Below are positions 300 to 45,100 of a stretch of 64,000 bases of DNA, piece by piece. The notes below the pieces were generated by a model. That model did not search any database, was not told the DNA's origin, and saw only the letters and a program-made list of their open reading frames with translations. A program made the translations under genes and the position numbers. The stretch comes from Watersipora subatra (taxonomy: Eukaryota; Bryozoa; Gymnolaemata; Cheilostomatida; Watersiporidae). The stretch spans positions 57,615,526 to 57,679,525 of the forward strand of contig NC_088717.1 of the NCBI RefSeq assembly GCF_963576615.1, given 5' to 3'. Position 1 is the stretch's first letter. Every line of letters begins with the position of its first letter.

Positions 300-504
300 A
301 TGTCTTGGTATAGTGGTCAAGCGTCGAGCAGGAACTTGCAAGACCCTTACGTCCGTAAGCCATGGAAAGATGAGCCTACCAACTACAGTCGCTCGGCGAG
401 TGTAGATAGCCTTAGAGAGGGAAGCATTTGTCAGAGACTTCCGAGAACACCCCTACCTGCTGAAAGAGAACGCGACGGTTTAAGACAGCAACATCCTAGA
501 GAAG
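300..504 (+). CDS. channel exon 1 (aa 1-68)
   Basis: Encodes the start of the cytosolic N-terminus, beginning MSWYSGQAS. It is Ser/Arg/Pro-rich with no recognised domain. The donor is GAAG|GTAACT, phase 1, and joins exon 2 in frame. The start was chosen as the first ATG after the in-frame upstream TAG. It is the least certain exon because this region is not conserved in the family. Confidence 0.7.
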
Positions 505-3500
505 GTAACTCTGACTGTACAGTTGATAGTTTTCTAATTATAAACACTATTTGAGTTTGTTTCTTATGGCAGCTTTTCATTACACTCTATGTTTCGGCAT
601 CATGGTCTAAAAGAAACATAATTGGTATATCAAACGTGTTTTTATTAGTTAGATTGTAAAAGATTCTATGGAGAAGGTTGACTTGGATTCTGGTCGTTAT
701 TTATAGCAACAGGCGTACTGTTAGGTTATTATGTGTGCAGTATATTAAGATGAGTAGTGGGCTAAGGAACTGTAATCTTACCGCAGGATATCTATGAGTA
801 ATTAATTAGTCTGTCGTTGGAGAGAGAAAGGTGAGTGGGATGACTTCTCTACCAGGCTCTTGCCTTTTTCCAGTACAGAGAGTTAGCATATTCACGAATA
901 CACTCCATTCAGAGCCATTTTAGTTACTGCTGTTTATGCTATTTTAATGGCTAGCTAGTGAATGAAAGTGCTGTGACAGTGGTAGTCAATGAAGCTCGTC
1001 CGTTGTCATTACTAACCCATCTCCTAGTAAAATCACTCACTCTACTGCACAGCGACGTGCTCAGTTTGTTTTTGTTCTTATTCATGACTTTGAGCCACAC
1101 AAGAGCGCTATCTCCATAAAGGTAAATGCATATCGTGTTGATGTTCTGCTTGCTGGAACTAAAATAAGATCTAGGATACAAATGTATTAGTGCGTAGTGG
1201 AAGTTAAAGGGTTGGTAATGTACTTCATACACTAAGCTCAGTGGAGTTAGTAAAGCAACTGGTGTCATGGTGAATAAAACTTTTCGCTCAAGTGCAAGAC
1301 ACTCTTCGCTCACGTTGGTCAAGACACTCTTCACTCACGTTGGTCAAGACAAAGGCATTTCATTTGGCTTTTGACAGTCCTCACTGCAGTTTGCCAGAAA
1401 TTTGATTACAAAGGTTTTTGACTAAATGATTTATACTGATTTGTCAAGTTCAAACCTGGTTTTTCGTATGAGTAGAGCCAACCTCCAACTGCTAAAAACA
1501 GTATTTATTAATGTTGGAGTATTTACACTACTGCTCAACTGATAACTTCCAATTTATTTAGTAAACAAATTTTGTAACTGCTAAATATAGCTACTTTTAA
1601 TCATATTTAAATATATAATTTATATATACTTGTTAGAATATTACTTTACAAAATGACTCAAAGAACAAAGCTGTTTCTATGTTTGTTGGACTACTAAAGT
1701 ATAACAGGGGAAGTCATATATAGGTCATTTATATAGTATATATAGTCATATAAACTAATTGAATGCTACAGGAAACGAGTTTAGGCCAATAAACAATCCG
1801 ATAGCAATGAGCACTGTCCACACCACTCCTAATGACATTTCCCTTCAAATAAACTCCAAACAGCCCAGCTCTAACAGAACAACACAGAACCAGAGTCGTG
1901 TCGAGTCACCTCGCATTGTAAGCAAGGCGTATGGGTTCAACCTGCCAACATCTGAACGTCTGAGAACACGCAATGCTCAGGTACAAACTTATAGTAAATG
2001 TGTCCTTCTAGTCAAGTTGTCTCCAATTAGTTAAATTGTTAGTTGGTTTCACTAAATCGGTAGCTGCAAATAACAGGTTGGGAAAGAGCTCACCGAGAAG
2101 GCAGCAGTTCTGACAAGAAGCTATTCAACGGGTGAAACTATAGCCATTACTTCAGGCCTTATAATTCGTGGATTCACTGAGAAGACAACTACACATGGAA
2201 TTCCTCACATATATTTTGCTACAGGTACGCTTTCGCTTGCTCCATTTTTGTTTAACATGGTTTTGAGGATATTACACATTTATTAGTTGTAGCTGTGTGC
2301 TGGGCGTTGTTCTTATATTGAAGCCAGATAAGGTATTGAAAGTATTTCATAATGCATGAGTATGGATTGTTAACTACTCCTTTTCCTGTCTATGCGCAGA
2401 AGTCTTCCATTTGCATTAGAGTCTGTTATTATACTCTTCAGCAGTTTCACGATTTGTTATGTAATCTCAGAAAAGATCAGTGCTGGATATTGGCGTAGCT
2501 GCCTAATCAGCATGGTTCAGTGACCCGGCAGCATTCAAACACAACCTATGATAGAAAGTCAACACTCGTGTAGGCCTATTCTGTTTGGGCTATTAGCCGT
2601 CCATCAATAGGCCTGCTATATAAATGGTGAGAGTAACATCAATCATGCGTGGCCTCAATTCTAATCACATAACCAAATTTAGTAAACGAAATAGTGGGTA
2701 GTGCCCTCATTTCTATTGTAGGCTTGATAAAGAAACTCGTTTGGGCAGTTGTGACAATCGCAGCCCTTGTGGCTCTCTGCCTCCATCTTTATCTCCTCAT
2801 CTCTAGCTGGAAAGAGAATGCTATTGGAACAAGACAGGTCTCGACACAAAAACGAAAGTTAATATTTCCTGGTAGGTGAACCTTTTACTATCAGTTTTTT
2901 TTCTTGGTAAAAATTCATATGCAGTTATAGACAGAAGAAAATAAAGAACAATGTATTAGAAAGACAGACTCTGTGGTTGTTTATATTGGACATGCACTAA
3001 CATGTGCTTGTTTTCCTTCTGCATATAGGCTAGCATAATAATTATTTCCTGAGAGTCTAGCCTTCAGTAAGCTTTAATAAATGAATTATAAATTGGCCAA
3101 GAAAATCAAGTTGCCATGCTTATTATAATAAATGTAAACATCAGACATACTTCGGCCTCAATCTGAAGGAATTTGAGGTTTCCAAGAAATGCAGCTAAAT
3201 TCGGTAGGCTGGTCTTGTTGATTTTACAATTGGCTTTAGCCTTTCTTATAGCTGGCTCAATTAGTATTGACATAAGCTAGGTTGTCAACCAGAATTAGGA
3301 GGTTGTATAAGATAATCTTAGATCTGATATTTAAAACTGATTGTTGACATAAGAAATGGGTTAAGGAATTTTATTATTGTATCATTAAACTGCATGTTAA
3401 GCACACAAGTTTCTTTCCAATTACGATTGGCTACTCATTTTCGTTAGCCTATCATGATAGGCTACTCTCTAACCAATCATAATTGGCTGCTCATTTTCCC

Positions 3501-6500
3501 CGCCAAACTTTCGTTCATCGCTTTTTTCTGCTCTATCATTCTCGACCACTAAATGGGATTCCAAATTTTATATATTTAAGGAGAAACTAAACATTTAAAC
3601 AACATTCTATGGTCTGAACATGCTACAGTTTGAGCATTCTATAATTTGAACATTCTATGGTTTGAGCATTCTATGATTGAACATTCTATCATTTAAACAT
3701 TCTATGGTTTGAACATTCTATGATTTGAACATTCTATGATTTGAACATTCTATAATTTGAACATTCTATGGTTTGAACATTCTATGGTAATCCTTAGTAA
3801 CCTTAACTAATTAAAGTCATAACTTAATGTTACATAATACTTTTTGCAGCAGTTGTCACAATGATTTGTAGCATTTGATATTTCATCCTATAAATACCAT
3901 AATGTTGCCCTAAGCTGATCAAGATAGTTCTTCTTCACTTGTGAGTAAATAAAGAAAACAAATATTTTGCTGTACTCAACAGGGTTTCAGGATGTTCTAG
4001 TTACTTATATTCGAGGGGTTTGGGCAATGCCTGGCAAATTGAGTGTCTGCTTAGCTTACCGCAAGCAGAGGCTGTGTATGTTTCTAAGAGTACTTATGTA
4101 TAAAAATGCTTCTGCGATTCTGGCTGGACAAGTCTGACCTAGGTGGCAAGGAAACTTTAACAACTGACGATCAATTTTAAGATCGGATGCTATGTCTGTC
4201 ACCACTTGTGGCCCCTTTTGGGAATTGCACCCAACCTGCTGGACACATTTCAGGTCTATTAGACAACTCGGATAAATCTGTTCTTTACAGTAAATAACAG
4301 TCAGAGGCACTTCTGGTTGATTCATTTTATATGATAACAGGTAGAGATCTGAGCCCGATATGGCAGATGAACACCCATACATATTTTTTGAGAAAGCTAT
4401 GTTCACACTACAGCACTGTAGTTTTAGTACTATTTTAGGCTTTTGTTGATGCTCAGTGGAATATTATAATATTTCACTTATTATAATATACATATTATAA
4501 CATTGTAAATGAAAATTGTGCAATTCATGTAGAAATGCTATGAAGTCGCCGTGTTGTACTTTTAAGATCTCAAAATTACGATAGTCAAATTTTGTTTCGT
4601 GAACTGCTATCTTGTCCTATAGTCAGCCAACCACCTCGTTGCTGTAGTGTGCTGCATGTAAAACTAAAACCATGTCAATCTTTTTATTGACGGCTGCCAC
4701 TATGTGCAACTTTCTATTTACAGCTGTCACCGTGTGCAACTTTCTATTTACAGCTGTCACCGTGTGCAACTTTCTATTCACAGCTGTCACCGTGTGCAAC
4801 TTTCTATTTACAGCTGTCACTGTGTGCAACTTTCTATTTACAACTGTCACCGTGTGCAACTTTCTATTTACAGCTGTTACCATGGCCAACTTTCTATTTA
4901 CAACTGTCACGGCGTGCAACTTTCTATTTACAGCTGTCACCGTGGGCAACTTTCTATTCACAGCTGTCACCGTGTGCAACTTTCTATTTACAGCTGTCAC
5001 CGTGTGCAACTTTCTATTTACAGCTGTTACCGTGGGCAACTTTCTATTCACAGCTGTCACCATGTGCAACTTTCTATTTACAGCTGTCACCGTGTGCAAC
5101 TTTCTATTCACAGCTGTTACCGTGGGCAACTTTCTATTCACAGCTGTTACCGTGGGCAACTTTCTATTCACAGCTGTCACCGTGTGCAACTTTCTATTTA
5201 CAGCTGTCACCGTGTGCAACTTTCTATTCACAGCTGTTACCGTGTGCAACTTTCTATTTACAGCTGTCACCGTGGGCAACTTTCTATTTACAACTGTCAC
5301 CATGTGCAACTTTCTATTTACAGCTGTCACCGTGTGCAACTTTCTATTTACAGCTGTTACCGTGGGCAACTTTGTATTTACAGCTGCCACTATGTGCAAC
5401 TTTCTATTTACAGCTGTCACCGTGGGCAACTTTCTATTCACAGCTGTCACCGTGTGCAACTTTCTATTTACAGCTGTCACCGTGTGCAACTTTCTATTTA
5501 CAGCTGTTACCGTGGGCAACTTTCTATTCACAGCTGTCACCATGTGCAACTTTCTATTTACAGCTGTCACCGTGTGCAACTTTCTATTCACAGCTGTTAC
5601 CGTGTGCAACTTTCTATTTACAGCTGTCACCGTGGGCAACTTTCTATTTACAACTGTCACCATGTGCAACTTTCTATTTACAGCTGTCACCGTGTGCAAC
5701 TTTCTATTTACAGCTGTTACCGTGGGCAACTTTGTATTTACAGCTGCCACTATGTGCAACTTTCTATTTACAGCTGTCACCGTGTGCAACTACAACACTC
5801 TGAGGGTTTCTACAATAAATAATTACATTAAACTTGGATCACTCGTGGATGAAGCATCCCAGCAGTCTAATGGGTCGAGTGACAGAGCCTCCTTAAGAAT
5901 GGATCTCATTGGAGAGCTAGCAAAAGGTATGTTGTAATGTTTTGCTTATGATTGTTACTGCACTTAGTATTCTTGCACATCGTATTCTTTTTTATGTACC
6001 AAGGTTATAAAGGAAAGATAATTCCAAAGCTTCCCAATACTCTCTCTCTCACAGTCAGTCGTTTCAACAATAACTGTTTTATGCTTTAGGCATTTTCATC
6101 GACTTCCAAGTAGCGCTGTATTCTGCTTTCTTTTGCCATATGTTTTGGGTATAGCTTCCAATACTGCATGTACATGTTTTCTCTTTGTTTAATAAACTTT
6201 TTTTAAGGATAAATGCTAACACAAACATTGCTGTTAAAATGCATGCATTTTAAAAATGTTTGATGACCTTTAGAGTTCACCACATTGGAGGATGATGAAT
6301 TTAAAGACTTAGGACACAATGCCAGTGAATTAGCCCTCTTCTGCTCCTTTTACGGCGAGTCGTGTGAAAGTGAATACTTTCGTTACTTGAGAGATCCTCG
6401 CTATGGGAATTGTATCACCTTTAATTCTGGTCGCTTGGAGACGAGTGATGAGAGTGCGTCAGTCACTAAAATACCTTTAAAGGCTTCAAGCCTCACTGGC

Positions 6501-9500
6501 CCAGAGAGTGGTGAGTATTTAAATAGCTCTTTACAAACCACCAGTTACCACTCAGAAGTTAACACTAAAATTAATGCGCGTTATAAGGAAGGACAACTGC
6601 TAATAAGCAACAGTCAGAGGTATTGCTGAAAGTGAACTCAGGGAAATCTGGCCATAGTTTATAATCTATTTTTCAGCATTCCTTTAAATTGGTTTTAAAT
6701 TCAAGTTGCCTGTAATTCATTAGATTTGACAATTCTTATCGTGATTCAACCGGTATCAGCTTTGTGCAAGCTTGCCTAACCTAAACACGCAAGCATGCCT
6801 AACCTAAACATACAAGCATGCCTAACCTAAACACGCAAGCATGCCTAACCTAAACATGCAAGCATGCCTAACCTAAACACGCAAGCATGCCTAACCTAAA
6901 CACGCAAGCATGCCTAATCTAAACACGCAAGCATGCCTAACCTAAACACGCAAGCATGCCTAACCTAAACACGCAAGCATGCCTAACCTAAACATACAAG
7001 CATGCCTAACCTAAACATGCAAGCATGCCTAACCTAAACATACAAGCATGCCTAACCTAAACATGCAAGCATGCCTAACCTAAACATGCAAGCATGCCTA
7101 ACCTAAACACGCAAGCATGCCTAACCTAAACATGCAAGCATGCCTAACCTAAACATGCAAGCATGCCTAACCTAAACACGCAAGCATGCCTAACCTAAAC
7201 ACGCAAGCATGCCTAACCTAAACATACAAGCATGCCTAACCTAAACATACAAGCATGCCTAACCTAAACATGCAAGCATGCCTAACCTAAACATGCAAGC
7301 ATGCCTAACCTAAACATACAAGCATGCCTAACCTAAACATGCAAGCATGCCTAACCTAAACATGCAAGCATGCCTAACCTAAACACGCAAGCATGCCTAA
7401 CCTAAACATGCAAGCATGCCTAACCTAAACATGCAAGCATGCCTAACCTAAACACGCAAGCATGCCTAACCTAAACACGCAAGCATGCCTAACCTAAACA
7501 TACAAGCATGCCTAACCTAAACATACAAGCATGCCTAACCTAAACATGCAAGCATGCCTAACCTAAACATGCAAGCATGCCTAACCTAAACACGCAAGCA
7601 TGCCTAACCTAAACATGCAAGCATGCCTAACCTAAACATGCAAGCATGCCTAACCTAAACACGCAAGCATGCCTAACCTAAACACGCAAGCATGCCTAAC
7701 CTAAACATGCGAGCATGCCTAACCTAAACACGCGAGCATGCCTAACCTAAACATACAAGCATGCCTAACCTAAACATGCAAGCATGCCTAACCTAAACAT
7801 GCAAGCATGCCTAACCTAAACACGCAAGCATGCCTAACCTAAACATGCAAGCATGCCTAACCTAAACATGCAAGCATGCCTAACCTAAACACGCAAGCAT
7901 GCCTAATCTAAACACGCAAGCATGCCTAACCTAAACACGCAAGCATGCCTAACCTAAACACGCAAGCATGCCTAACCTAAACATACAAGCATGCCTAACC
8001 TAAACATGCAAGCATGCCTAACCTAAACATACAAGCATGCCTAACCTAAACATGCAAGCATGCCTAACCTAAACATGCAAGCATGCCTAACCTAAACACG
8101 CAAGCATGCCTAACCTAAACATGCAAGCATGCCTAACCTAAACATGCAAGCATGCCTAACCTAAACACGCAAGCATACCTAACCTAAACATGCAAGCATG
8201 CCTAACCTAAACATGCAAGCATGCCTAACCTAAACACGCAAGCATGCCTAATCTAAACACGCGAGCATGCCTAACCTAAACACGCAAGCATGCCTAACCT
8301 AAACACGCAAGCATGCCTAACCTAAACATGCGAGCATGCCTAACCTAAACACGCGAGCATGCCTAACCTAAACATACAAGCATGCCTAACCTAAACATGC
8401 AAGCATGCCTAACCTAAACATGCAAGCATGCCTAACCTAAACATGCAAGCATGCCTAACCTAAACACGCGAGCATGCCTAACCTAAACACGCGAGCATGC
8501 CTAACCTAAACATACAAGCATGCCTAACCTAAACATGCAAGCATGCCTAACCTAAACATACAAGCATGCCTAACCTAAACATGCAAGCATGCCTAACCTA
8601 AACATGCAAGCATGCCTAACCTAAACACGCAAGCATGCCTAACCTAAACATGCAAGCATGCCTAACCTAAACATACAAGCATGCCTAACCTAAACACGCA
8701 AGCATGCCTAACCTAAACATGCAAGCATGCCTAACCTAAACATGCAAGCATGCCTAATCTAAACACGCAAGCATGCCTAACCTAAACATACAAGCATGCC
8801 TAACCTAAACATTCAAGCATGCCTAACCTAAACACGCAAGCATGCCTAACCTAAACATGCAAGCATGCCTAACCTAAACATGCAAGCATGCCTAATCTAA
8901 ACACGCAAGCATGCCTAACCTAAACATACAAGCATGCCTAACCTAAACATGCAAGCATGCCTAACCTAAAAGTAATATTTTTATTACAACTCAAAATCAT
9001 TCCATTTCTAGTGTTTATACATAAGGTGCTTAGTTGTAGTGAACTATGGTTATTGTGAATTATGGATATAATGAACCATTGGTACAGTGAAGCATGGCTA
9101 TAATAAACTTTGGAGTGACTACTCTCTCAAGCACATCATGTGGATCTAAAGAGGCGAAGAACACAACTCTAACATCACCATGCTCTGCTCATACAGTTTT
9201 GTGGTTTTGTAGGTCTATCTTTTGTGATTTTCGTGGAGCAGTATGAATATATTCCTGTGCTGACACCCGCTGTCGGAGCTCTCATAGTCGTTCACAATCA
9301 GTCCGTAATGCCTTTCCCAGACCAGAATGGTATTTCTGTCACTGCGCAGACTCTCGTCAATATAGGAATCAGAAAGGTAAATAATGGGCTCGCTAAAAGA
9401 TGTGTTTTGATCCTTTTTCTGGCTACGCGAGATACTTACTCCTTTAGTCTTGCACACATGGAGTTCTTTTCACAATGTTGTTTCGGTGATACGTGATCAG

Positions 9501-12500
9501 TATGGTAATTACTCTATCGAGGACCTCTAAATGAGTTCAATAAAAAACAGCGTACTTCTTACTTTTAGCGTTCAGTTTTCATAGATTCAAAACAAAAAAT
9601 ATTTATGAATATTTCAGGCCATGATATTGCCATGCATATGCTATTTTAGCGCTGTCAATGGACCCTACTAAACTTGCTTATTGCGTGTGATCATATGCCT
9701 CAGTCAAGATAAAACTATTTCAATTTTTCTAAAACGATGAAAAGTACAAGATTAAAATCCAAACACTTTACATGAACCAAATGAAGTAACACCTCACATT
9801 AAGAGAATTCGCAAGTACCCCGCATTAGAACAGCTAACAAATCTTATTGCATCATACGTACTTTGAACTAATGAACTTTGAACTAATAAGATGGTGGCTT
9901 CGCACATGTTTGCCCTCCAGTAGTCTATCTATTTGTTAGAAAATTCAATGGAAGTTTAGAGAAAAGTTTCAAGAAAGTTTAGTTTAGAGAAAGTTTAGTT
10001 TTATAATCTTTTATAGCTTCCTCTGTTGTTCCTAGTTTTAAATTAAATGCCTGTATAATAAATATGCTGAAGGAGCAGCCTTGACAAAGTGTATGCTTTG
10101 AGTTGAGTCTCCTGTTAAACCAAAGTTAGGAAAAGTGTTTAGTGACAAAGATTCCTGAATCAATTTATGAAGTTATTAATAGCAATTCAATAGTTCCAAT
10201 ATGCCGGCTACGCTCATAGCAGTACAAAGTGTGTTGTGCTCAGTCACATGCAAACTGTTATGAAAGTAAAATACCAGAATCTGTCTGTACTAGACAATAC
10301 TTACATCTGGGCTAACTGTTAACTGTTAACTGTTAACTGTTTCACTGCTACTTACAAGTAATAAAAAGTAGATTTACGTATCTTTTCAGAAACTGTTAGT
10401 TTGAGCTCTTAAATATTATTCAAAAGTAATATTCAGGGTATGGTATGTTTTGTCAGGAAGTTCACGAGCGACTTTCAGGGAAATATGGAAACTGCACTGG
10501 AAATGATGACAATACCAATAACATATATCATCCAAAGTATCAGGTATGCTAATAATATTTAAATATTTATATATCATCAGAAGTGCACTCTATAATAGTT
10601 CTATACTTGTATATCATCAGAAATACAAGGTATCTTTATAATAGTTGTATACTTGTATATCATCAGAAGTACAAGGTATCTTTATAATAGTTCTATACTT
10701 ATATATCATCAGGAAATACAAGGTATCTTTATAATAGTTCTATACTTATATATCATCAGGAAATACAAGGTATCTTTATAATAGTTCTATACTTATATAT
10801 CATCAGGAAATACAAGGTATCTTTATAATAGTTCTATACTTGTATATCATCAGGAAATACAAGGTATCTTTATAATAGTTGTATACTTATATATCATCAG
10901 GAAATACAAGGTATCTTTATAATAGTTCTATACTTGTATATCATCAGGAAGTACAAGGTATCTTTATAATAGTTGTATACTTATATATCATCAGGAAGTA
11001 CAAGGTATCTTTATAATAGTTCTATACTTGTATATCATCAGGAAGTACAAGGTATCTTTATAATAGTTCTATACTTATATATCATCAGGAAATACAAGGT
11101 ATCTTTATAATAGTTGTATACTTGTATATCATCAGGAAGTACAAGGTATCTTTATAATAGTTCTATACTTATATATTATCAGGAAGTACAAGGTATCTTT
11201 ATAATAGTTGTATACTTATATATCATCAGGAAGTACAAGGTATCTTTATAATAGTTCTATACTTATATATCATCAGAAGTACAAGGTATCTTTATAATAG
11301 TTGTATACTTATATATCATCAGGAAGTACAAGGTATCTTTATAATAGTTCTATACTTGTATATCATCAGGAAATATATCATCAGGAAATACAAGGTATCT
11401 TTATAATAGTTGTATACTTGTATATCATCAAAAGTACAAGGTATCTTTATAATAGTATTTGTATACTCATATACGTATTACATGTTAATTCACATGTTTT
11501 AGGTGAGTTATTCACAAACAGCCTGTTTAAAGACTTGTTTCCAAAGACAAGTAGCTAAAGATTGTGACTGCTATATATCCACAGTACCATATGATCACCG
11601 AAGTGAAGTATTTGTTGGTCTGCCAGAGCTATCCGTGTGTGACGATACCATTGCATCTGTTGGTGAGTAGATATTAATAAAACTTGAGGAAACGTTCATA
11701 TTCACAGTGAAATTTGACTATGAGCATTGGGTATTGTGTCAAAACTGAGCCATTTCATTTTATAAAGCGTATTATTCAAAATGAACTATCAAACGCTCCA
11801 TTTATTCACCTCATTTCTTGCAGCTAGCTGTCTCGCTAGGGTGCGGGACAACTACGAGGATCACACAATCTCTTGTGATTATTGTCATAATGCATGCTAT
11901 GAGACTGAGTTTCCCTACAGTATCTCCACAGCCTCGTGGCCCGCTGAATCATATTTAGTATGTTTATTCCTTTCATGCTTATATTTATTGCTAGTATTTC
12001 TCTTTAACTTCATCGTGAAAAATCCTGATTGTGCTTCTTGTGGAAATTTTTTCTTATATTCATCATGGAAAATCTAACTGTGCTCATTGTGAGAATTTTT
12101 GTTCATATTAATTGCGGGAATTCTTCATTGTGTTCAATATCGTGGCTTCTACTTCAATTGTTGCATTGAGCTAATATCGTGTTTTTAAGGATGATTTGAT
12201 AGTCGATCTGATCAGCAACTATCCTGACCTGATGAAACGGATTCGAAAGAAGGCTAGAAGCACAGAAGATGGCCAACCACAACTTACTAATTCTGAAGTC
12301 AATGAACAAGTAAGTGTTCATATTTTATTTATGTTGAAAGCTGCATGTTTCTAATGAACCCAGTTACCAGGCTTCCAGGCTAACTTGCCTCTATATATAT
12401 ATATATATATATATATTTCTCAAAGGATGTCTGTCATCTGTCTGTCATTCCAGCTATAGTTATTATTAGAATAGCCGTAGCTGGACAACAATGCTGACAC

Positions 12501-14847
12501 AACGTCATGGCCTACCACCATTAGAAGCCTAGCGCCTATTAACTAGCTCACTGGAATTACTAGCTTACTAGCTCAGAATTAGTAAACTAACTAGTTCACT
12601 AGCTTACTTAGTTTGTAAGCTGATTTTTAACACCCGGGCAACGCCGGAAGACAAAGCTAGTTACTAATAAAGTTCTCTTCACTAATATTTGTCTCAATTG
12701 CTGCCTAGACCTAGCTAAATGATTGAACTGAGAACTACAGATAAAAGTTGCTCTTTTTTGGGCTTTGCCGTCCAACTGTAACTTGCAATCACCTCTATTC
12801 TCAAGTCTCTCAATATTTGCTATAAAGTTCAGTGAAATACTTGTCTCATTTTATAACTAGCCGGTAGAGTATGGTGTCTAGAGTATTTTAAATATTATAG
12901 ATTTTTAAGTAAAAGTATAAAAACTGATAGAAACTAAACATAAAATAAACTTTAAATTATGTGCATAGTAAGTTACACTAAAGATCTCTATTAGTCATTT
13001 TACTACATCACCTATCTATTTTATCTCCTGTGTTACTACGGCTAGACATCAATTTATTTCTTTAACATAGACAAACTTTAACAATGGAAGCCTATTTTTT
13101 ATTGCTTAATACCTAATTAATTTGATATGTTAAATTGAGTTTTTTGCATAGCTTTGTATATAATGCATTTTTTAATGCTATCACATGCAATTACTAGAAT
13201 AAGTTTTTGAAAAATGGAGTGAGGTAAACGAAACACACTGTATTTTAATAAGATTGCACTAACGCGCAATAGTTTTGACGTACCAAGCAAACATAGAAAC
13301 AAATAAACATTGTATTTCAAGTTTTAACTTTTTAATTTAGCTTTTGTAAGTTTGCGAATTTCAAGTTAAAATATTGAATAAACCTTGAATTAGAAATAGT
13401 TCTTACAGAATAAACCTTGAATTAGAAATAGTTCTTACAGAATAAACCTCAAAATAGTGATTCACAAAAGTTTCAAACTACTTTTTGCTGCAACAAATAG
13501 ACGCGCAACATGACAATTGTATTCAGTTACTTAAAAAACAACCATATGATTTTTATTACTAAGCATTCACTTTGTTTCTTAATTATACTGTAACTTCTTG
13601 AGAATTAATGTAGGTGAGAATCGGTTTCAGCATAATCAATCCTCTCTCTATACAATGAACCAACGTTTTACTTGCAAAAAGCCGGAAAGAGGTCACAACT
13701 CCATCAAGTCAATGTATGAAACTATTTTTATCAGTGAGTGTAAGTTATACTGTAAATAAAAGACAACCACAGTAATTTTCATAAACATCGGGTTAGTGAC
13801 ACAACAGTTGAAAGAAAAGAAAAAATTATAGCAGGATTTATAGTATGAGAGAATTAAAAACAGAATAACGATTGCAAGATGTACTCAATAAATAGTTTGA
13901 TAAGGTATAGTCTTATTCCACTTCTCAGTCAATCATAGTGTAGGTGAGTATGCAATGACTTTCTGACAATGGCTATCAGAGTTTAGTAATAAAAGGCCTC
14001 TATTGAAAATGTAATGATTGATGGGTTACTTCTAACTGAGTTCAAAGGTCAAGTGGCATCCTTTAGAAAACATCTAATCTATAAAAGCATGATGAAGAAT
14101 GCGTAATACACAAATAAATAGTATAAGGGGAAAGTATCAGATTAACTGTTTAGTTTAAAAGAAGTAGGATGATGTGAAAAATATATTTATGGAGTAAATT
14201 TTGTACAGTTATTAGAAAAGAATATTATACTATGGCAAACAGCAGCTGTGATTGTTGGTACTTTGTATAAATAGGATTATTTTCCATAGAGCAAAGTGGA
14301 CCAGTTTTTAAGTGCTGCGTTTAAAAGGTTTTAATTGAAAACCAAAATACAACTGTATAATCTATGCTTTAGGTGAAGAGCATTGTCAAATCCAACTTTC
14401 TACAAGTAAACATCTACTATGAACGACTACAGCAGGTTACATACGAAGAAGTAGCTCTATATGATGATTACCAATTTGCTTCTGATTTAGGTATGTATAG
14501 ATCTATGATGATGTTAGACATTGGAATGGCTGTAATTAGGTTACGCAATCCTTAATAACGTGACACTGTAAAATTAAAAAATTTGTATTTGTAAATTTAT
14601 CCTAGAGCAAATATTGTTTTTAGGGGCAACTCACTTATGCTGTACAGCGACTACTGAGCTCATTGTCTTTGTGTCTACATATTTGCATTCTTTCTATTTG
14701 TTAGGTGGATCATTTGGACTTTGGGTTGGCTGGTCTATAATCACCATGATAGAGTTCATAGAAGTGCTAATAGATCTGTTGGTATATTTTTGCTTTGGCT
14801 GCTGTGGATACAAGAAATACAAATCCCCTAAAAAACAAAGTATGTAA
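300..14847 (+). CDS. DEG/ENaC family sodium channel subunit, 13 exons, complete
   Basis: This gene encodes a trimeric amiloride-sensitive-type cation channel subunit of the plasma membrane (degenerin/ENaC/ASIC superfamily). The spliced CDS is 2028 nt (675 aa), and all 12 junction phases agree. Visible in order: a long cytosolic N-terminus (1-177), the His-Gly gating motif at 178-179 (THGIPH), TM1 at about 193-213, the post-TM1 motif FPAVTVCN at 236-243, a Cys-rich extracellular domain including the ACYETEFPYS...SWP motif in exon 10, TM2 at about 633-656 with a G-W-S filter at 637-639, and a short Lys-rich C-tail. The start ATG at 300 follows an in-frame TAG. Gating stimulus and ion selectivity cannot be read from sequence; it could be an ASIC-, FaNaC- or degenerin-type subunit. 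The C-tail could be longer, because AAAgtatgt just before the stop resembles a donor site. Family assignment is certain; exact orthology is unknown. Confidence 0.93.
505..1771. other. channel intron 1, nothing recognised
   Basis: Contains only a 26-bp direct duplication at about 1292-1346 (CACTCTTCRCTCACGTTGGT). A minus-strand open frame here has no family features. Confidence 0.5.
1772..1980 (+). CDS. channel exon 2 (aa 69-138)
   Basis: Continues the polar N-terminal cytosolic tail, rich in Asn, Ser, Thr and Gln with no conserved motif. The acceptor is GCTACAG| and the donor CTCAG|GTACAA. Its 209 nt restores phase 0 for exon 3. Confidence 0.75.
2077..2224 (+). CDS. channel exon 3, HG gating motif (aa 139-187)
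   Basis: Carries the conserved pre-TM1 segment, with FTEKTTTHGIPHIYFAT ending the exon. The His-Gly pair at 178-179 (codons at 2194-2199) is the conserved gating motif of the DEG/ENaC family. Acceptor AACAG|, donor ACAG|GTACGC, phase 1. Confidence 0.9.
2722..2871 (+). CDS. channel exon 4, TM1 (aa 188-237)
   Basis: Encodes the first transmembrane helix (about LVWAVVTIAALVALCLHLYL), then SSW and a charged stretch ending in Phe-Pro. I chose the acceptor at 2720-2721 because it has a good pyrimidine tract and joins exon 3 in phase 1. The frame is open further upstream to 2694, but no good acceptor is there. Confidence 0.9.
3601..3787. repeat. 16-17-bp tandem repeat, about 11 copies, channel intron 4
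   Basis: Degenerate units of GAACATTCTATGGTTT and similar. The remaining left part of the intron (2872-3600 and 3788-4680) shows no coding sequence or further array. Confidence 0.88.
4681..5790 (+). repeat. 30-bp minisatellite of 37 units built from the exon 5 acceptor
   Basis: Thirty-seven head-to-tail 30-bp units lie at the end of intron 4. Each consists of TTTCTATTTACAG followed by CTGTCACCGTGTGCAAC. This copies the pyrimidine tract and AG of the true exon 5 acceptor (AG at 5772-5773) and the first 18 exon bases. The first unit is degenerate (GACGG in place of ACAG) and four units carry ACAACT instead of ACAGCT, leaving 32 intact AGs including the genuine one. The array is stop-free in the gene's frame from 4672 to 5937. 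It is also open in other frames because 30 is a multiple of 3, so openness alone does not prove coding use. Confidence 0.97.
5774..5926 (+). CDS. channel exon 5, post-TM1 motif (aa 238-288)
   Basis: Joins exon 4 to complete FPAVTVCNYNTLR, the conserved motif following TM1 in DEG/ENaC channels. The acceptor lies inside the last unit of the 30-bp array, so the biological 5' end of this exon may vary in steps of 30 nt. The donor is AAAAG|GTATGT, phase 1. I annotate the shortest form, which matches family length. Confidence 0.88.
6274..6510 (+). CDS. channel exon 6, extracellular domain (aa 289-367)
   Basis: Part of the extracellular domain, with CSFYGESCESEYF and GNCITFNSG, the conserved Cys-containing segment followed by a G-x-C-x-T/V-F-N motif typical of this family. 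Acceptor CTTTAG|, donor GAGTG|GTGAGT, 237 nt, phase 1 on both sides. Confidence 0.92.
6764..8970. repeat. 23-bp minisatellite, about 95 copies, in channel intron 6
   Basis: The unit is CTAACCTAAAC, then RYG or RTA variants, then CAAGCATGC. Each unit contains the palindrome GCATGC and, on the minus strand, a TTTAGGTTAGG block that resembles telomeric repeats. Variants (CACGCAAG, CATGCAAG, CATACAAG, CACGCGAG) recur in blocks, indicating segmental duplications inside the array. It begins about 250 bp into the intron, so it is not tied to a splice junction. Confidence 0.97.
9213..9376 (+). CDS. channel exon 7, extracellular domain (aa 368-422)
   Basis: Begins with the family motif G-L-x-x-V-x-x-V-E-Q-Y-E-Y (GLSFVIFVEQYEY), then a segment ending in ISVTAQTLVNIGIRK, which corresponds to the palm and beta-ball region of ASIC-type channels. 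Acceptor TTGTAG|, donor AAAG|GTAAAT, ending in phase 0. Confidence 0.92.
9377..10456. other. channel intron 7, nothing recognised
   Basis: AT-rich; a short AACTGTT tandem tract at about 10311-10341 is the only pattern noted. Confidence 0.5.
10457..10543 (+). CDS. channel exon 8 (aa 423-451)
   Basis: A short 87-nt exon containing the conserved YGNC segment (KYGNCTGND), the start of the disulphide-rich thumb. Acceptor TGTCAG|, donor TATCAG|GTATGC. The final exon bases and the donor look like the founding unit of the 47-bp array that follows. Confidence 0.88.
10525..11470. repeat. 47-bp minisatellite, about 19 copies, seeded on exon 8 donor
   Basis: Units read TATATATCATCAG, then GAAGTACAAG|GTATC, then TTTATAATAGTTCTATACT, with a period of 46-48 bp. 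The exon 8 end ACATATATCATCC-AAAGTATCAG|GTATGCTAATAAT aligns with the unit, including the GTAT donor core, so nearly every unit carries a donor-like CAAG|GTATCT. Reading through from exon 8 meets TAA at the third codon, so use of any copied donor would truncate the protein. Confidence 0.93.
11503..11662 (+). CDS. channel exon 9, Cys-rich thumb (aa 452-504)
   Basis: Encodes SQTACLKTCFQRQVAKDCDCY, the C-x(3)-C-x(n)-C-x-C disulphide ladder of the DEG/ENaC thumb, then a segment with an additional Cys (LSVCDDT). Acceptor TTTTAG|, donor TTG|GTGAGT, phase 1. Confidence 0.93.
11824..11957 (+). CDS. channel exon 10, SWP motif (aa 505-549)
   Basis: Contains CDYCHNACYETEFPYSIS and TASWP. The C-x(2)-C-x(3)-C-Y...Y-x(n)-S-x-x-S-W-P arrangement is the clearest signature of DEG/ENaC channels before TM2. 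Acceptor CTTGCAG|, donor TTTA|GTATGT, ending in phase 0. Confidence 0.95.
12190..12309 (+). CDS. channel exon 11 (aa 550-589)
   Basis: Forty codons of polar sequence (DDLIVDLISNYPDLM...) forming the variable thumb/palm insert before the terminal palm strands. Acceptor TTTTTAAG|, donor GAACAA|GTAAGT, phase 0 on both sides. Confidence 0.82.
12310..14372. other. channel intron 11: small repeats only
   Basis: Holds a (TA)n tract at 12389-12414 and a fragment with ACCCGGGCAACGCCGG at about 12630, which also occurs at about 51130 and, inverted and diverged, at about 55070 (an interspersed repeat end). A 32-bp direct duplication lies at about 13376-13450. No extra coding exon is supported. Confidence 0.6.
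14373..14490 (+). CDS. channel exon 12 (aa 590-628)
   Basis: Encodes the terminal palm strand leading to TM2, including VNIYYERLQQVTYEE and DDYQFASDLG, matching the family's F/Y-x(n)-Y-x(n)-LLSDIGG region. Acceptor CTTTAG|, donor TTTAG|GTATGT, phase 1. Confidence 0.92.
14705..14847 (+). CDS. channel exon 13, TM2 and stop (aa 629-675)
   Basis: Encodes GGSFGLWVGWSIITMIEF followed by a hydrophobic helix and a cytosolic FGCCGYKKYK tail ending at TAA 14845-14847. The selectivity-filter triplet is Gly637-Trp638-Ser639, with Trp (TGG at 14731-14733) where many family members have a small residue. Acceptor TTTGTTAG|. Confidence 0.93.
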
Positions 14848-15089
14848 TGTACTGTGGCAGCATTTAATCTGTTGCTTGGACGATGCCTTATAACTTTGCA
14901 ATACGCTTTTTGCGTTTTATTACCTCGACTATCAATTACATTTTTCTATTTATTATATCTTTTTATCCCAAAACTTGCAATTCTATTGCCAGTTCAATCT
15001 ACTTACAATCATAAAATTTGTTACTTGACCTTTAACCTTGGCCTTATTTTCAACTACTTTAATATTTTTAGAAAAAATTATATGTCATC

Positions 15090-15095
15090 AATAAA
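15090..15095 (+). terminator. polyadenylation signal AATAAA for channel gene
   Basis: A canonical AATAAA lies 243 bp after the channel stop codon, on the coding strand. It is a reasonable 3' end signal but the cleavage site is inferred. Confidence 0.5.
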
Positions 15096-18000
15096 GATTT
15101 TATTCAATAGCAACACTGTTAAGCTTAATCATGCGAATTATATCATCTGTATTAAGACAGAACAAGTGGAGACAACATTGAACTAACCCAAGAGAGACAT
15201 GACTTGATACAAGAGACACCCGTGGCTCACCATAAACCTCATAAGTTCCTTGACTGCCATGAGTGACTGTGATTGCTTAGAGCTATCCCCCCCGTCCGTG
15301 CTTAGAGCTAATGCTTGCTCAGTGCTCATATTCAAACCTTCATTTCTGTGTAAATTTTTCGAACTCTGTTAGCTAATTCTTTTCTATTATTACAATTATA
15401 GTGACAATTATCGTTGTAATTGTTTTTTTGCGATTTGGCTCTGAGCTGATGATTATTCGCTCAAGTGCTGCTTCTTGTCTTCCTTTGTGACTTACTGATT
15501 TGTTTAATGCTGCTCTCTGATTTGCTCATGTTTCTGTAACAAATGTTGTTCAAATTCTAACCATTCTGATTTGTTATGAGCGTCATCCATATTTATTCTG
15601 ATTTCATTCATTTTTATTTAGACAATTTAATCCAATCTACGAGCTGGTTAGGAGAGAGTTGTCTCATCATTAAAAATATATTCATTTGACATCAATAGTG
15701 AATAATTTATGTAACACATGGCTATCAACACTACATTGAAGTTATGGTTTGTAAGACTAAAATTTTAATTAATAATAAATATAATTAAATATATGCAATA
15801 AAATAATTTTTTTAATCAATCGAAAAAGTAGAAGCAATAATATATTCACTATTCAACTGGTAAATATTGTTAATAAAAACTAAAGTAATAGCTGCTATGT
15901 CACTCATATCTATAAACAAAATTTAGCAAAAAAATTCCAATCAAGTAGTTTGTGGATTTTCATTTAGAGATCATCCTCTGCATTAACCTAAAGAATTTTG
16001 CGATTTTATGTGTGTTTTATAAATGAATGTGTATATAAATGTGTGAAACAAGCCTTTGTTTTTAGACAAAATGATTTTGAGTAAAATATTGAGGTAAATA
16101 ATTAATTTTATAATCCCTCGTACTCAAAATATGAAAATATGTAAACATACCACAATCAAGGAACAGTATTATCTGCAGCAGACATATAATATTAATAGTT
16201 AACAATTTAAGAATAACAATAATTTAACAACATATTTATGGCGTGTGTAATTTTACCTAATACTTTTAATAAAAAATACCTGAATGGCAATCAAATTAAA
16301 TTGTTGGGTAAATACTTCTTGAACCTGAATTCAAGTATACAAGCTTGCTTCTTTTGGAGTTGTCATTTCGACGCAGATCGCACAAAACGAATGAGACTCG
16401 TGAATGAATTTTGCGATTAAACTGAATCAAAGATTTTAGGTCTCCAACTAGCGATTCCACTAAGCTTCCTTGTAACTGTTTTTGTATAAAACTCTTAATA
16501 GAGGTGTTTGCTCGCTACATCTGATTGGACAGTTAATTTCTTAATGTATGTATTTTTTGCTGTTGAGCATATTTTTCATGATTTTGAAATGAAATGAATA
16601 AAAATAATAATTTTTATTTTAAAATAATTTAAGAACAATATATAAAACAACTACTGTTTTTATATTCTATAATTGTCCCTAACGAATCAATCAACGACGC
16701 CTTGAACAGACCTGTTAGTATATTGCTCGTATTCGATGACCTGGGATGTTTGGTTTCGGTAGTTTCCAATCCTGTAGCTCGTGTCGAATCACTTACGTAA
16801 TTATATGTAGTTATCGTTCAAATTTGGTTGAAACATGGTTTCAAAAATTCTGACTTGTTCGTCAAAGAATGTTTTGTACATATGTGATCACCATGTTTAG
16901 CTTCAAAGCTGAAAAGAAGCAGTCTAATTTGTTGATTAATGAAAGTGTATAATTAGACATTAGCACAGCTCTTTTTTAAGAACAACCAGTTTTTAGTGAC
17001 AAGTGTTCGGTTGTTATAAGGACAAGTTGCTGCCATATGAAGAGTGCAATGATAGTATACCTTTTTCTGTGTGATTGAATATAACCACTTTCTCGTCAAT
17101 AATCTTGGACCGTTGATCACATCAATGATATAAACCCTCGGGGTTGTATATATCATTGATCATATACTGTATAAATTTGTATCAATGAAGGTTTTTGTTG
17201 GTGGGAATTATGTATTTGGGTGTAAATCAACAACACAGCTTGTTAGCGTGAATATTTTTTGGTTATCAGCATACTTTTGTGTTGGATATAATTACAGTCT
17301 ACTGCAGTGACTATTTTGAAAACGTTAATTGCCTGTTAATGACTACATTGGGAAATAAAAAAATTTATTAATAAATAAACTAACTAACTTTAAAAAAAAT
17401 CGAGTGGGCTACATCATTTATATCTACTGTTTTTGTCAGTAGGCTTATTTTATGCACCATGTTTTGTCTATTTTGATTAAATGTGTTACATACAGTTGTG
17501 GCTGCCATGTATATCTCATTTACAGCATAAAATGTCAAGTAATTTATTGCTCCATATGCTTTGTACGTAGAATTTACATATTGTTAAAATGCAGCACACT
17601 TTCAAATATGTTCACAGATTTGAAATCACTTATGTAACTTTTCAAAGTTTTTTTCTTGGGTGACACCCAAAAAGTTAATGGGCTGTTTGGTTTCTTCCAC
17701 CATGTGTTGGTACAAAACTTAGGTTTCAAAATCTAGGAAATATCTTTAGGAAAGTGAACTGTTTTCGCATAGTAGCGGTGTACTAGCTCAAGTTTGACAG
17801 TGCTCTTTAGGAAGACTCATTGTATTTCAGCAACAAGTTAACTAGTTTTGCAAATGACTCGCTCATTTTTTTATAATGGACAAAAACTGAGAGCCAATAA
17901 TCAACTAAACTAAAAAGTTAAATAAGTATTATGTTTCTTGACTTATAGTGCTTTTATGGCGCCCATTGATTCAGCGGTTCTGATTTTAGAAGAAAACATA
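15096..18000. other. intergenic DNA, no gene seen
   Basis: AT-rich with no conserved coding sequence. A short inverted repeat at about 17121-17160 (ATCAATGATATA and its reverse complement around a C/G-rich loop) could form a hairpin. Short open frames here show no family resemblance. Confidence 0.6.
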
Positions 18001-27100: not shown

Positions 27101-30100
27101 GTTCAGGAGTTCATTCAGAGTGAGTCATTGTGTTTATTACAACTTTCCTATGGTAGTCATGGCGTTTATTACAACTTTCCTATCGTAGTCATCGTGTTTA
27201 TTACAACTTTCCTATCATAGTCAAGGCATTTATTACAACTTTCCTATCGTAGTCATGGCGTTTATTACAACTTTCCTATCAGGGGCATGGTGTTTATTGC
27301 AACTTTCCTATCAGTCATGACGTTTATTACCACTTATGGTAGTCATGGCGTTTATCACAACTTTTCTATCATAGTCATGGCGTTGTGTTGGCCCGCTGGC
27401 TAAAGACTAAGACTAGAGCCCCTTGTGGGGATTATTTAACGCATAGATAGATCATGTGACTCATCAATTATTGATTTTGTCAATCTCAGTAGTTTTGTCC
27501 ACATGGGTTGTGTGAAAGTCAAACAACATGAACTTGATAAGAAAGTAGTTGACAGCAATTGGTTGAAGAGGACAGATAAATCCTTGCTTTAATATCATTG
27601 ATTTTGAGGACAGATAAATCCTTGTTTTAATATCATAGATTTTGGTTGGGGACAGATAAATCCTTGCTTTAATATCATTGACTGGTCGAAGAGGACAGAT
27701 AAATCCTTGCTTTAATATCATTGACTTTGCTTGGAGAGGACAGATAAATCCTTGCTTTAACATCATTGACTGGTCGAAGAGGACAGATAAATCCTTGCTT
27801 TAATATCATTGACTTTGCTTGGAGAGGACAGATAAATCCTTGCTTTAACATCATTGACTTTGATTGAAGAGGACAGATAAATCTTTGCTTTAATATCATT
27901 GACTTTGGTTGAAGAGGACAGATAAATCCTTGCTTTAATATCATTGACTTTGGTTGAAGAGGACAGATAAATCCTTGCTTTAATATCATTGACTTTTCAA
28001 GTTTCCCATTGATAGAATCGCACATCATTTGCTTTGCTTGTTTATCGTTTGGTATAGACTCATTAGCAGGGCCATGCTATTTGATCTTTGGTATATGACA
28101 TATATATACAGTCAAACATGGATAACTCAGCCACGGATATTTCAAATACATTGTTAACTCGAACGGATTCTTTGGTCCGTTCCTACGCAATGATAAATTG
28201 CTTTAGATAACTCGAACTTAACACGGTTAACTCAAACAGTTTTTTGCCGAAGGAACAAACTTAAAACAAACTTTGGTTTGTTTTAATCCGAAGGAATTTA
28301 CATTAATCGCGGAGCTACGACTACTCTGCCTTCCTAGCGAGTAAAGTGCTCCCTATAGGTATATAGTGTACATATATTTCCCCCGTACCGTATAATGGAA
28401 CCAATTAGGAGACCGTATAAAACCTGATTAATGGGGTCGCTAACACGTCAGCTAAGTTACGCCCAAACTAAAAACGTTAAAAAGTATTAGCGATAAAAAT
28501 TTAATAAAGATCGACACAACGTGCATAATGCATATTGTAAGAGTGATTATATGTGGATATATAAGGATAACACACCTTTTCACAGACTACACTCGATAGG
28601 TTTTTTAAATGAAACAACTACTCAGATGTGAAGCATGCGTTTTTGGATTGGTCGTAAATGTTTACTCGTGTGAAGTTTTAAAAATTATCCGAAAATTTAG
28701 ATATTTTTCTGTCAGCTAAGATTTGTTTGTGGTTTTAGGTGATGTGACTGCCGAGATGTTTTAAGATTAAAATTGGCAAAATTGATTCCTGTTAAAACGC
28801 TCAGAAGAAAAAGATGGATTTTTTTTCTGAGTGTTTCGACGACGATCAAGTTTTGCCAATTTTAATCTGGAAACGTCCTGGCGGTCACATCGCATAAAAC
28901 AACAAACAAATCTCAAGGGATAGAAAAATCTCTATACTTTCTGATAAAAAAATTTTAAACTTTGCATTAGAAGCATTTTATTTAAAGCAAGCCATTCATG
29001 CTTTTGATTTATATTATAGTTTGTATATGTACGTGTATCTACTAATAAATACATGACTTATGACAGTGCTCTGACAACTTGAACGCTCTGATAACTCGAA
29101 CACTTTCACTCGGTCCCGTGAAGTTTGAGTTATCCATGTTTGACTGTATATATATATGGCATATATAATATTGACATCATGTGTACATTGTCATGTACAT
29201 TGGTTACTGCTATTATTCATATAGAAGAGACCGGTGAGTGCAATTTGATTGTGTTGCTTTCAACTGTCTTTTACTTTACATTTCTGTTAAAAATTCTTTG
29301 TAGCCAAACTCTGACCGCATTCATAATCGATGCGTTTGTTTTTTATTATCCACTCAAATTATTAAAAGTGTATGGCACCGCTAGTGGTACATTTTTGACC
29401 TTGACCCCAGGTGCAACGGAGAGCACTGGCAAGGACAGGGCAGAGTCTAAAGAAGATCCTTTGGCCTTAGCTCTGGGCGTAAAGCCATTGGATAGCCGGA
29501 ATGCACTCATACCCAGACATGAGTTTATCAACAGTGCTGTAAACGATACTCTAGAGATGGATGTTGATTTCACATACTTTCGTTCAGAAGGAAAAAGGGT
29601 ATTCAATTGACTCATTCACCTGTAAAGCCATTTTGCTGCTGATTTCCTGAGGCCATCTATTCTATTGTTTCTGTCCCACAATCCTGACTATATTTTCAGA
29701 AATCCGTGCTATATTTCAGCAGTTACCCCCTCTTTGCTATGTTTATTTATAACATCTAGTGCTATCCACTCAACTTTGTTAGTCTACTATCAGCAACCTA
29801 CTAAAATCATCACCTTCGCTATATCAGTATTATAGCACTGTTACATGTATATCATAAAATATTCTCTCTGCTATGACGACCTACCAATCATGCTACATTC
29901 TAAATTGAGCGTTCTATTTTTTCAGTTTTTTATCATCATCAAATCGTAGTAGTTATCCTCTCTCCTCTATCAGGCTCGTAGCAATGCTATTTCTGAAGAG
30001 TTGTCTTTTCTATTATCGGTCTGCTGTCAGTGTTATATTGTAGAAATTATCAGACACTTTACCAAGTCGATACTTCAACACTGCTAAATGCTGAGTCTAT

Positions 30101-42100: not shown

Positions 42101-45100
42101 AACTTAACTGTAGATAGTGAACAGGCGTCTCATAACTTACCTACAAATAGTGAGCAGGTGTCTAATAACTTACCTGTAGATAGTGAGCAGGCGTCTCATA
42201 ACTTATCTGTAGATAGTGAGCAGGTGTCTCATAACTTACCTGTAGATAGTGAGCAGGTGTCTCATAACTTAATTGTAGATAGTGAGCAGGTGTCTCATAA
42301 CTTAACTGTAGATAGTGAGCATGTGTCTCATAACTTACCTGCAAATAGTGAGCAGGTGTCTAATAACTTAACTGTAGATAATGAGCAGGTGTCTCATAAC
42401 TTACCTACAAATAGTGAGCAGGTGTCTCATAACTTAACTGTAGATAGTGAGCATGTGTCTCATAACTTACCTGCAAATAGTGAGCAGGTGTCTAATAACT
42501 TAACTGTAGATAGTGAACAGGCGTCTCATAACTTACCTACAAATAGTGAGCAGGTGTCTCATAACTTACCTGTAGATAGTGAGCAGGTGTCTCATAACTT
42601 ACCTACAAATAGTGAGCAGGTGTCTAATAATTTACCTGTAGATAGTGAGCAGGTGTCTCATAACTTACCTGTAGATAGTGAGCAGGTGTCTCATAACTTA
42701 ACTGTAGATAGTGAGCAGGTGTCTCATAACTTAACTGTAGATAGTGAGTAGGTGTCTCAACTTAACTGTAGATAGTGAGCAGGTGTCTCATAACTTACCT
42801 GCAAATAGTGAGCAGGTGTCTAATAACTTACCTGTAGATAGTGAGCAGGTGTCTAATAACTTACCTGTAGATAGTGAGCAGGTGTCTAATAACTTACCTA
42901 CAAATAGTGAGCAGGTGTCTAATAACTTACCTGTAAATAGTGAGCAGGTGTCTCATAACCTAACTGTTGAAACTGTTTGATCAGAGCTATGGTAGGTCAT
43001 CTTATACTGACGGCTAGCTGATCAATTAATTTCTTATTGTAGGAATATTGTGACATGTACGTCGACTATCTTCTAAATCAAATGGTGGAGAAACAGTTCA
43101 ACGCTTTCTACAAGGGATTTCATATGGTAACAGATGAGAGTCCCATGGAAAGCCTCTTTACTCCCGAAGAGGTTGAGGAGTTGGTGTGTGGCAGCGATGA
43201 TTGGGATCTGCAGGCCATGGTATGCATGTCTCATACGATTCTATTGAACCTTTACTCACTGACTGAACATGGCATGCGTGTTGTCTCATACGATTCTATT
43301 GAACCTTTACTCACTGACTGAATGTGGTATACATGTTGTCTCATACGATTCTATTGAACCTTTACACCTTGACTGAACATGGTATACATGTTGTCTCATA
43401 TGATTCTATTGAACCTTTACTCACTGACTGAACATGGGATACATGTTGTCTCATACGATTCTATTGAACCTTTACTCCTTGACTGAACGTGGTATACATG
43501 CTGTCTCATATGATTCTATTGAACCTTTACTCACTGACTGAACGTATTATACATGCTGTCTCATATGATTCTATTGAACCTTTACTCATTGACTGAACGT
43601 ATTATACATGCTGTCTCATATGATTCTATTGAACCTTTACTCACTGACTGAACGTGGTATACATGTTGTCTCATATGATTCTATTGAACCTTTACTCATT
43701 GACTGAACGTGGTATACATGCTGTCTCAAATGATTCTATTGAACCTTTACTCATTGACTGAACGTTGTATACATGTTGTCTCATATGATTCTATTGAACC
43801 TTTACTCATTGACTGAACATGGTATACATGTTGTCTCACATGATTCTATTGAACCTTTACTCACTGACTGAACGTGGTATACATGTTGTCTCATATGATT
43901 CTATTGAACCTTTACTCAATGACTGAACGTGGTATACATGTTGTCTCATATGATTCTATTGAACCTTTACTCATTGACTGAACGTGGTATACATGCTGTC
44001 TCACATGATTCTATTGAACCTTTACTCACTGACTGAACGTGGTATACATGTTGTCTCACATGATTCTATTGAACCTTTACTCACTGACTGAACGTGGTAT
44101 ACATGTTGTCTCATATGATTCTATTGAACCTTTACTCAATGACTGAACGTGGTATACATGTTGTCTCATATGATTCTATTGAACCTTTACTCATTGACTG
44201 AACGTATTATACATGCTGTCTCATATGATTCTATTGAACCTTTACTCACTGACTGAACGTGGTATACATGTTGTCTCATATGATTCTATTGAACCTTTAC
44301 TCATTGACTGAACGTGGTATACATGCTGTCTCAAATGATTCTATTGAACCTTTACTCATTGACTGAACGTTGTATACATGTTGTCTCATATGATTCTATT
44401 GAACCTTTACTCATTGACTGAACATGGTATACATGTTGTCTCACATGATTCTATTGAACCTTTACTCACTGACTGAACGTGGTATACATGTTGTCTCATA
44501 TGATTCTATTGAACCTTTACTCAATGACTGAACGTGGTATACATGTTGTCTCATATGATTCTATTGAACCTTTACTCATTGACTGAACGTGGTATACATG
44601 CTGTCTCATATGATTCTATTGAACCTTTACTCATTGACGGAACGTGGTGTGGTATACATGCTGTCTCATATGATTCTATTGAACCTTTACTCATTGACTG
44701 AACGTTGTATACATGTTGTCTCATATGATTCTATTGAACCTTTACTCATTGACTGCACGTGGTATACATGCTGTCTCAAATGATTCTATTGAACCTTTAC
44801 TCACTGATTGAACGTGGTATACATGTTGTCTCATATGATTCTATTGAACCTTTACTCAATGACTGAACGTTGTATACATGTTGTCTCATATGATTCTATT
44901 GAACCTTTACTCATTGACTGAACGTGGTATACATGCTGTCTCATATGATTCTATTGAACCTTTACTCATTGACGGAACGTGGTGTGGTATACATGCTGTC
45001 TCATATGATTCTATTGAACCTTTACTCATTGACTGAACGTTGTATACATGTTGTCTCATATGATTCTATTGAACCTTTACTCATTGACTGCACGTGGTAT

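Follow-up and report, generated by a model that had tools for sequence, protein, structure and literature searches.

A tandem array of 3′ splice sites at an exon border of a bryozoan DEG/ENaC channel gene, probably a tolerated mirage minisatellite

In a 64-kb window of the genome of the bryozoan Watersipora subatra (contig NC_088717.1; the window denotes this whole stretch), the border between intron 4 and exon 5 of a DEG/ENaC channel gene carries 37 tandem units of 30 bp, each repeating the end of the intron and the start of the exon. We consider it probable that this array belongs to the "mirage" minisatellites, tandem repeats lying across an exon–intron border, and that its exon-proximal copy is the working splice site. 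The annotated protein of the gene joins exon 4 to exon 5 through the last AG of the array and bears no residues of the repeat.

The array at the intron 4/exon 5 border

The array (Table 1) has 0% indels and 90% matches. Its unit spans the exon–intron border, with 14 intronic and 16 exonic nt, and carries splice signals: the AG is present in 32 of the 37 units, with unit 1 reading GG and units 6, 8, 21, and 33 reading AA. The 14-nt acceptor is exact in 20 of the 37 units, or in 30 if a common T/C variant is allowed. Ten units are identical letter by letter (2, 3, 11, 14, 18, 22, 27, 30, 34, and 37), and unit 1 is the most diverged, with six differences from the consensus, as is often seen at array edges. 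The self-identity of the array at a lag of 30 is 0.907 over 1080 bp—in first-order Markov controls (n = 20, first 20 kb) it reaches 0.319 at most, which excludes a chance origin. Blocks of units are duplicated exactly, units 18–24 being the same as 30–36 and units 9–14 the same as 25–30; hence, recent unequal exchange is favoured, and the duplications suggest length instability between haplotypes or cells. With a three-unit query against the genome, all 17 matches fell on this array and no second place was found, in a search that scored only the best candidates and skipped simple repeats.

An earlier note on this DNA, made from the sequence alone, had described 37 units of 30 bp, 30 nt apart, with the AG kept in 32 and each unit combining the exon 5 acceptor with in-frame AVTVCN codons, and a gene frame free of stops across the array. 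All of this was reproduced, the gene frame being open from 4648 to 5937. Its caution that an open frame proves nothing by itself is likewise borne out: four of the six reading frames run through the units without a stop, the opening of one starting only at 4691, and the open frame was therefore rejected as evidence of function.

The host gene and its annotated splicing

The joined exons cover positions 19–454 of the 455 of the profile PF00858 and also match FMRFamide-gated, ENaC, and ASIC chains. As read from these exons, the host gene is an intact DEG/ENaC channel, in line with the assignment in the earlier note. It matches a 680-aa NCBI protein, "acid-sensing ion channel 1A-like isoform X2 [Watersipora subatra]" (here P0001), at 98%, with the same share of the query covered, and all but one residue of P0001 map to 13 segments of the gene. 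The opening codons of exon 5 are (G)CT GTC ACC GTG TGC AAC, and the join with exon 4 encodes the FPAVTxCN motif.

P0001 joins LIFP to AVTVCNYN without any residues of the repeat; therefore, the annotated transcript uses the AG of unit 37, and a read spliced there would run from exon 4 through CTGTCACCGTGTGCAAC into TACAACAC. P0001 represents a cluster of five sequences, and the splice is deduced from this one representative. A 1030-aa query carrying the 350 residues that the AG of unit 2 would add returned P0001 and four distant proteins. The scoring took in 7995 candidates of about 566–1802 aa, those sharing most words with the query, and yielded no isoform with the insert.

A separate minisatellite of the same gene, 23 bp × 96 at 6765–8970, lies in intron 6.

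Table 1 Features at and around the junction arrays. Positions are those of the window or, where a locus is named, of that locus. A slash marks the exon–intron border.
Feature	Position	Strand	Remarks
Channel gene of the DEG/ENaC (ASC) family, in 13 coding segments	300..15263	+	PF00858 E=9.7e-68; P0001 mapping
Exon 4 (first transmembrane segment, TM1)	2722..2871	+	last residues KLIFP, then one G (phase 1); donor CCTG/gtaggt
Intron 4, last acceptor used	2872..5773	+	P0001 join
37 × 30-bp array	4680..5789	+	unit = intronic CTTTCTATTTACAG (14 nt) + exonic CTGTCACCGTGTGCAA (16 nt, opening of exon 5)
First AG of array (unit 2)	4722..4723	+	use would add 350 residues
AG of unit 37, acceptor of annotated model	5772..5773	+	P0001 mapping
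Exon 5	5774..5926	+	153 nt; starts (G)CTGTCACC = AVTVCNYN, after AG 5772-5773
Array, 32 bp × 8.4	27123..27384	+	from intron +4; abuts putative donor CAGA/gtgagt (27119/27120)
UBE3A-like exon	43043..43219	+	donor GCCATG/gtatgc at start of 55-bp array
Donor-side array, 55 bp × 38.8	43227..45368	+	begins at intron +8 after UBE3A-like exon
27-bp acceptor array, one gene of C2 pair	L040 6698-9991 into L041 1-507		123 in-register units, AG in 117
Donor array, 54/48 bp × 20 near-identical copies	L045 8094-9121	minus	exon end + donor, ...TTCTCTCAAG/GTATAT or GTACAT
Donor array, 22 bp × 14	L044 4754-5061		strong donor GAG/GTAAGT at end of TM1 exon

How the array might be tolerated

A 30-bp stretch across the intron 4/exon 5 border was probably duplicated in tandem and then expanded, presumably via unequal exchange. 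The exon-adjacent copy would retain the old order of intron end and exon start, and the array would be tolerated because splicing at the last AG restores the original mRNA. Under the scanning model, the spliceosome takes as 3′ splice site the AG met first downstream of the branch point, passing over any AG within about 12–15 nt of it (PMC1431707). Since the AG preceding that of unit 37 is only 30 nt upstream, the branch point of unit 37 should lie inside the repeat, in roughly the last 45 nt. Only one yUnAy motif there is suitably spaced, the TTTAC of unit 36, with its A lying 33 nt before 5773; the TTTAC of unit 37 itself sits against its own AG and ends 2 nt before it. Each unit would thus supply an identical branch site, pyrimidine run, and AG, giving about 30 complete acceptors that differ mainly by position. 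Nine other units are identical to the last one over all 30 bp, which argues that the last copy is chosen by its position—probably via exon definition from the exon 5 donor at 5927—with the upstream units serving as minor sites at most. We infer the branch point, the complete acceptors, and the exon-definition step from the sequence.

Acceptor-side arrays elsewhere in the genome

Junction arrays recur in this genome, with six more found, one of which only abuts its border. Some come from a genome search with PF00858, which gave 57 matches; 30 of these were read with 1.5-kb flanks, together with 16 longer stretches (loci with L numbers below). A tandem DEG/ENaC gene pair on contig C2 (here C2) bears 27-bp arrays before the homologous AVTxCN exon in both genes. 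The array listed in Table 1 has no stop in 1124 codons of the gene frame, as against 45 and 209 stops in the other forward frames and 5, 120, and 236 in the reverse ones. Its last two units are degenerate, the final one resembling the exon start (ATGTGACCCTAT vs CTGTGACTCTAT). No annotated protein was found for the pair, with 46 candidates sharing words and none scored in a length range of about 550–1750. In L042, a 33-bp × 5 array precedes exon 6, with AGs at 6440, 6473, 6506, 6539, and 6572, and its gene frame holds no stops, compared with 6 and 8 in the other frames. The putative exon 5 donor chosen there, of phase 1, would fit the last AG as predicted acceptor. At the AVTxCN border, arrays are present in two of the seven loci seen with an intron at this place, C2 counted once (the window, C2, L042, L043, L045, L051, and L060). 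L044 and L046, outside these seven, have none at that border.

Donor-side arrays and scope of the survey

The 55-bp array of the window follows an exon (43043–43219) that, translated together with the one after it, gives a gap-free alignment with E6AP (E=3.9e-34). In later units of the array the letters of the border recur as CATG-GTATAC or close to it, the first one differing in length by 3 nt; GTATAC is present in 24 of the 31 anchored units, and the unit length is not a multiple of three. The 32-bp array adjoins its border without spanning it, and the exon before it appears to be UBE3A-like by a 9.1-bit stretch. In the L045 donor array, nearly every unit contains an in-frame TAG. Donor arrays whose units contain stops or shift the frame show that extra sites are tolerated. 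A further array of the window, 33 bp × 43 at 41540–42967 (a multiple of three), lies in a 459-codon open frame at 41372–42748 and ends about 76 bp before the UBE3A-like exon; it does not span a junction.

Around 78 exon-like DEG/ENaC matches in the 46 loci, 12 rows pair an exon with an array that overlaps it or lies at most 60 bp away. Three were counted as junction arrays (L042, L044, and L045:8094-9121); the 27-bp array of C2 was found separately and is absent from this list. Nine rows, with arrays starting inside the intron, were left out: L010, L032, L037, L039, and L041, loci that partly overlap each other, with 33 bp after the exon; L023 twice, with 21 bp; and L045:1454-1802, with 16/24 bp. 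In two small stretches, which hold 6 of 75 myosin matches, none of the matches had an array at 60 bp or less.

Frame asymmetry and tests for selection

On the acceptor side, the three unit lengths (30, 27, and 33 bp) are multiples of three and every array is free of stops in the gene frame; none of the four donor-side arrays—55 bp, 32 bp (abutting), 54/48 bp with in-frame stops, and 22 bp—combines both properties. A one-sided Fisher's exact test gives 1/35 for this comparison; the value becomes 1/20 if the abutting array is dropped and 1/15 if the discovery array is. The comparison is post hoc and very small, and the lack of stops in it is unsurprising for the C2 and window arrays. In the background, 23 of 65 arrays have units of a multiple of three, junction arrays included. 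There is a rationale for the asymmetry: the first-met copy of a duplicated acceptor is the wrong one, whereas the exon-adjacent copy of a duplicated donor is the right one.

The variation among the units gives selection on the AG or on the frame no support. Six of the 14 variant types are synonymous in the gene frame compared with a mean expectation of 4.3 (P=0.21), and codon constraint was rejected on this ground. A special conservation of the AG was rejected as well, since, of the 29 pairs of neighbouring bases, 19 are more often intact than the AG and two, the AG included, equally often. Avoidance of stops specifically in the gene frame, which the earlier note had proposed to look for, finds no support as a sign of selection either: 92% of column permutations of the window array have no gene-frame stop (P=0.92), and for the C2 array the same test gives P=0.49. 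Weak use of upstream copies may be compatible with this variation.

Alternative readings

Several points weigh against a merely tolerated array with one working acceptor. The use of the last AG is taken from one NCBI model, labelled isoform X2, of a five-sequence cluster; repeat acceptors are badly handled by mappers, so that minor use would escape notice; and all three acceptor arrays have open units of a multiple of three, though plain tolerance needs neither property. One rival, raised in the earlier note beside the use of a single AG, is that many acceptors are used to give a ladder of channels with n × 10 extra residues (AVTVCNFLFT) after TM1; such use might be regulated or not. The 32 equivalent in-frame acceptors and the identity of nine further units to the used one speak for such a series, as do the frame asymmetry and a human example, the ABCA7 variable number tandem repeat (VNTR) at a donor GT, which leads to transcripts keeping exactly one unit (PMC5954066). 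Nevertheless, P0001 uses the last acceptor, the insert isoform did not turn up among the 7995 candidates, codon and AG constraint were not detected, and the inserts would be long, hydrophobic, and placed within the FPAVTxCN motif. We thus regard the ladder as unlikely. A weaker variant seems to us similarly doubtful: acceptor arrays might leak at a low rate, so that only those with units of a multiple of three and no stop in the host frame survive, while donor-side arrays, in which the exon-proximal copy comes first, are not subject to it. In that case the n × 10-residue ladder would be produced by the channel gene at a low level, with a spread that depends on copy number and differs between colonies. 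The asymmetry may leave room for such occasional upstream use, rather than for an established isoform series.

Three further explanations carry far less weight. Exclusive use of the first AG, in unit 2, would place the branch point upstream of the array and the 350-residue insert in every channel; 4722 is the earliest AG past the array start and ACTAAAAC lies directly upstream of the array, but P0001 contradicts this, which makes it very improbable. Assemblies are known to be prone to error at tandem arrays, and the repeat might be an artefact or have been collapsed or expanded. Such an error is hardly to be expected given a HiFi assembly with a quality value (QV) of 63.2 (PMC12902671), distinct unit variants within the 1.1-kb array, and junction arrays of other sequence elsewhere in the genome. 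Finally, an ordinary intronic minisatellite might have chanced to end at the exon, the window being rich in minisatellites (19 non-overlapping arrays of at least 10 bp × at least 4); yet the unit itself includes the acceptor and 16 coding nt of exon 5, and we give this coincidence very little credence. The tolerated minisatellite with a working exon-proximal copy remains the reading that we favour.

Comparison with known systems

Mirages, as tandem repeats across exon–intron borders, are described for the Adh3 and globin genes of amphioxus, where they occur on both intron sides and leave regular splicing undisturbed (PMC3087553), and for PGBD5 (PMC3902484). These amphioxus repeats (Adh3, the globins BflGb6 and BflGb9, troponin C, and PGBD5) are the closest system, as they cross the border in the same way. 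They differ by belonging to another phylum and by copy number, the BflGb6 haplotypes carrying 6 and 3 units (PMC3087553) vs 37 and 123 acceptor units in Watersipora subatra. Unlike them, these bryozoan acceptor arrays consist of short units that are multiples of three and open in the gene frame; the BflGb6 acceptor units measure 150–160 bp and are not clearly multiples of three, and the frame rule is not obviously valid there.

The VNTR in intron 18 of human ABCA7 is alike in that the first GT of its 25-bp array is the exon 18 donor and a one-unit transcript was observed. It differs in lying on the donor side with a unit that is not a multiple of three, so that retention of one unit shifts the frame, and in having measured values for allele length and disease risk (PMC5954066). 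NAGNAG and other tandem acceptors share the competition of in-frame acceptors (PMC3250501), but comprise two sites separated by 3 nt, where the channel array has 32 at a spacing of 30 nt and a branch-point region for each. Duplicated splice signals are also found in intron gain by tandem duplication (PMC2812944), of whose new introns there is no sign here, and in internal tandem repeats at exon–intron borders of human segmental duplications (PMC4974935). A limited literature search found no bryozoan report of such arrays, which proves little. The Watersipora subatra array joins the known mirage type and stands out by its copy number and frame neutrality.

Other features of the window

On the minus strand, open frames at about 49000–64000 presumably belong to the large subunit of RNA polymerase I (POLR1A), and those at 61975–62935 resemble what we take to be reverse transcriptase fragments. 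Rfam at the gathering threshold and ARAGORN gave no match in the window.

Significance

How a 3′ splice site is chosen has been modelled as scanning from the branch point to the first AG, as competition between AGs, and as exon definition, and these models have been tested largely with engineered sites. The array offers a natural set of 32 near-identical, frame-neutral acceptors within one intron, nine of them in units identical to the one used, and the earlier note was right to see in it a natural test of this choice. The sister acceptor arrays (27 bp × 123 and 33 bp × 5) and the donor-side arrays provide internal controls in the same genome. If the frame asymmetry between acceptor and donor arrays is true genome-wide, it would gauge the leakiness of each kind of site.
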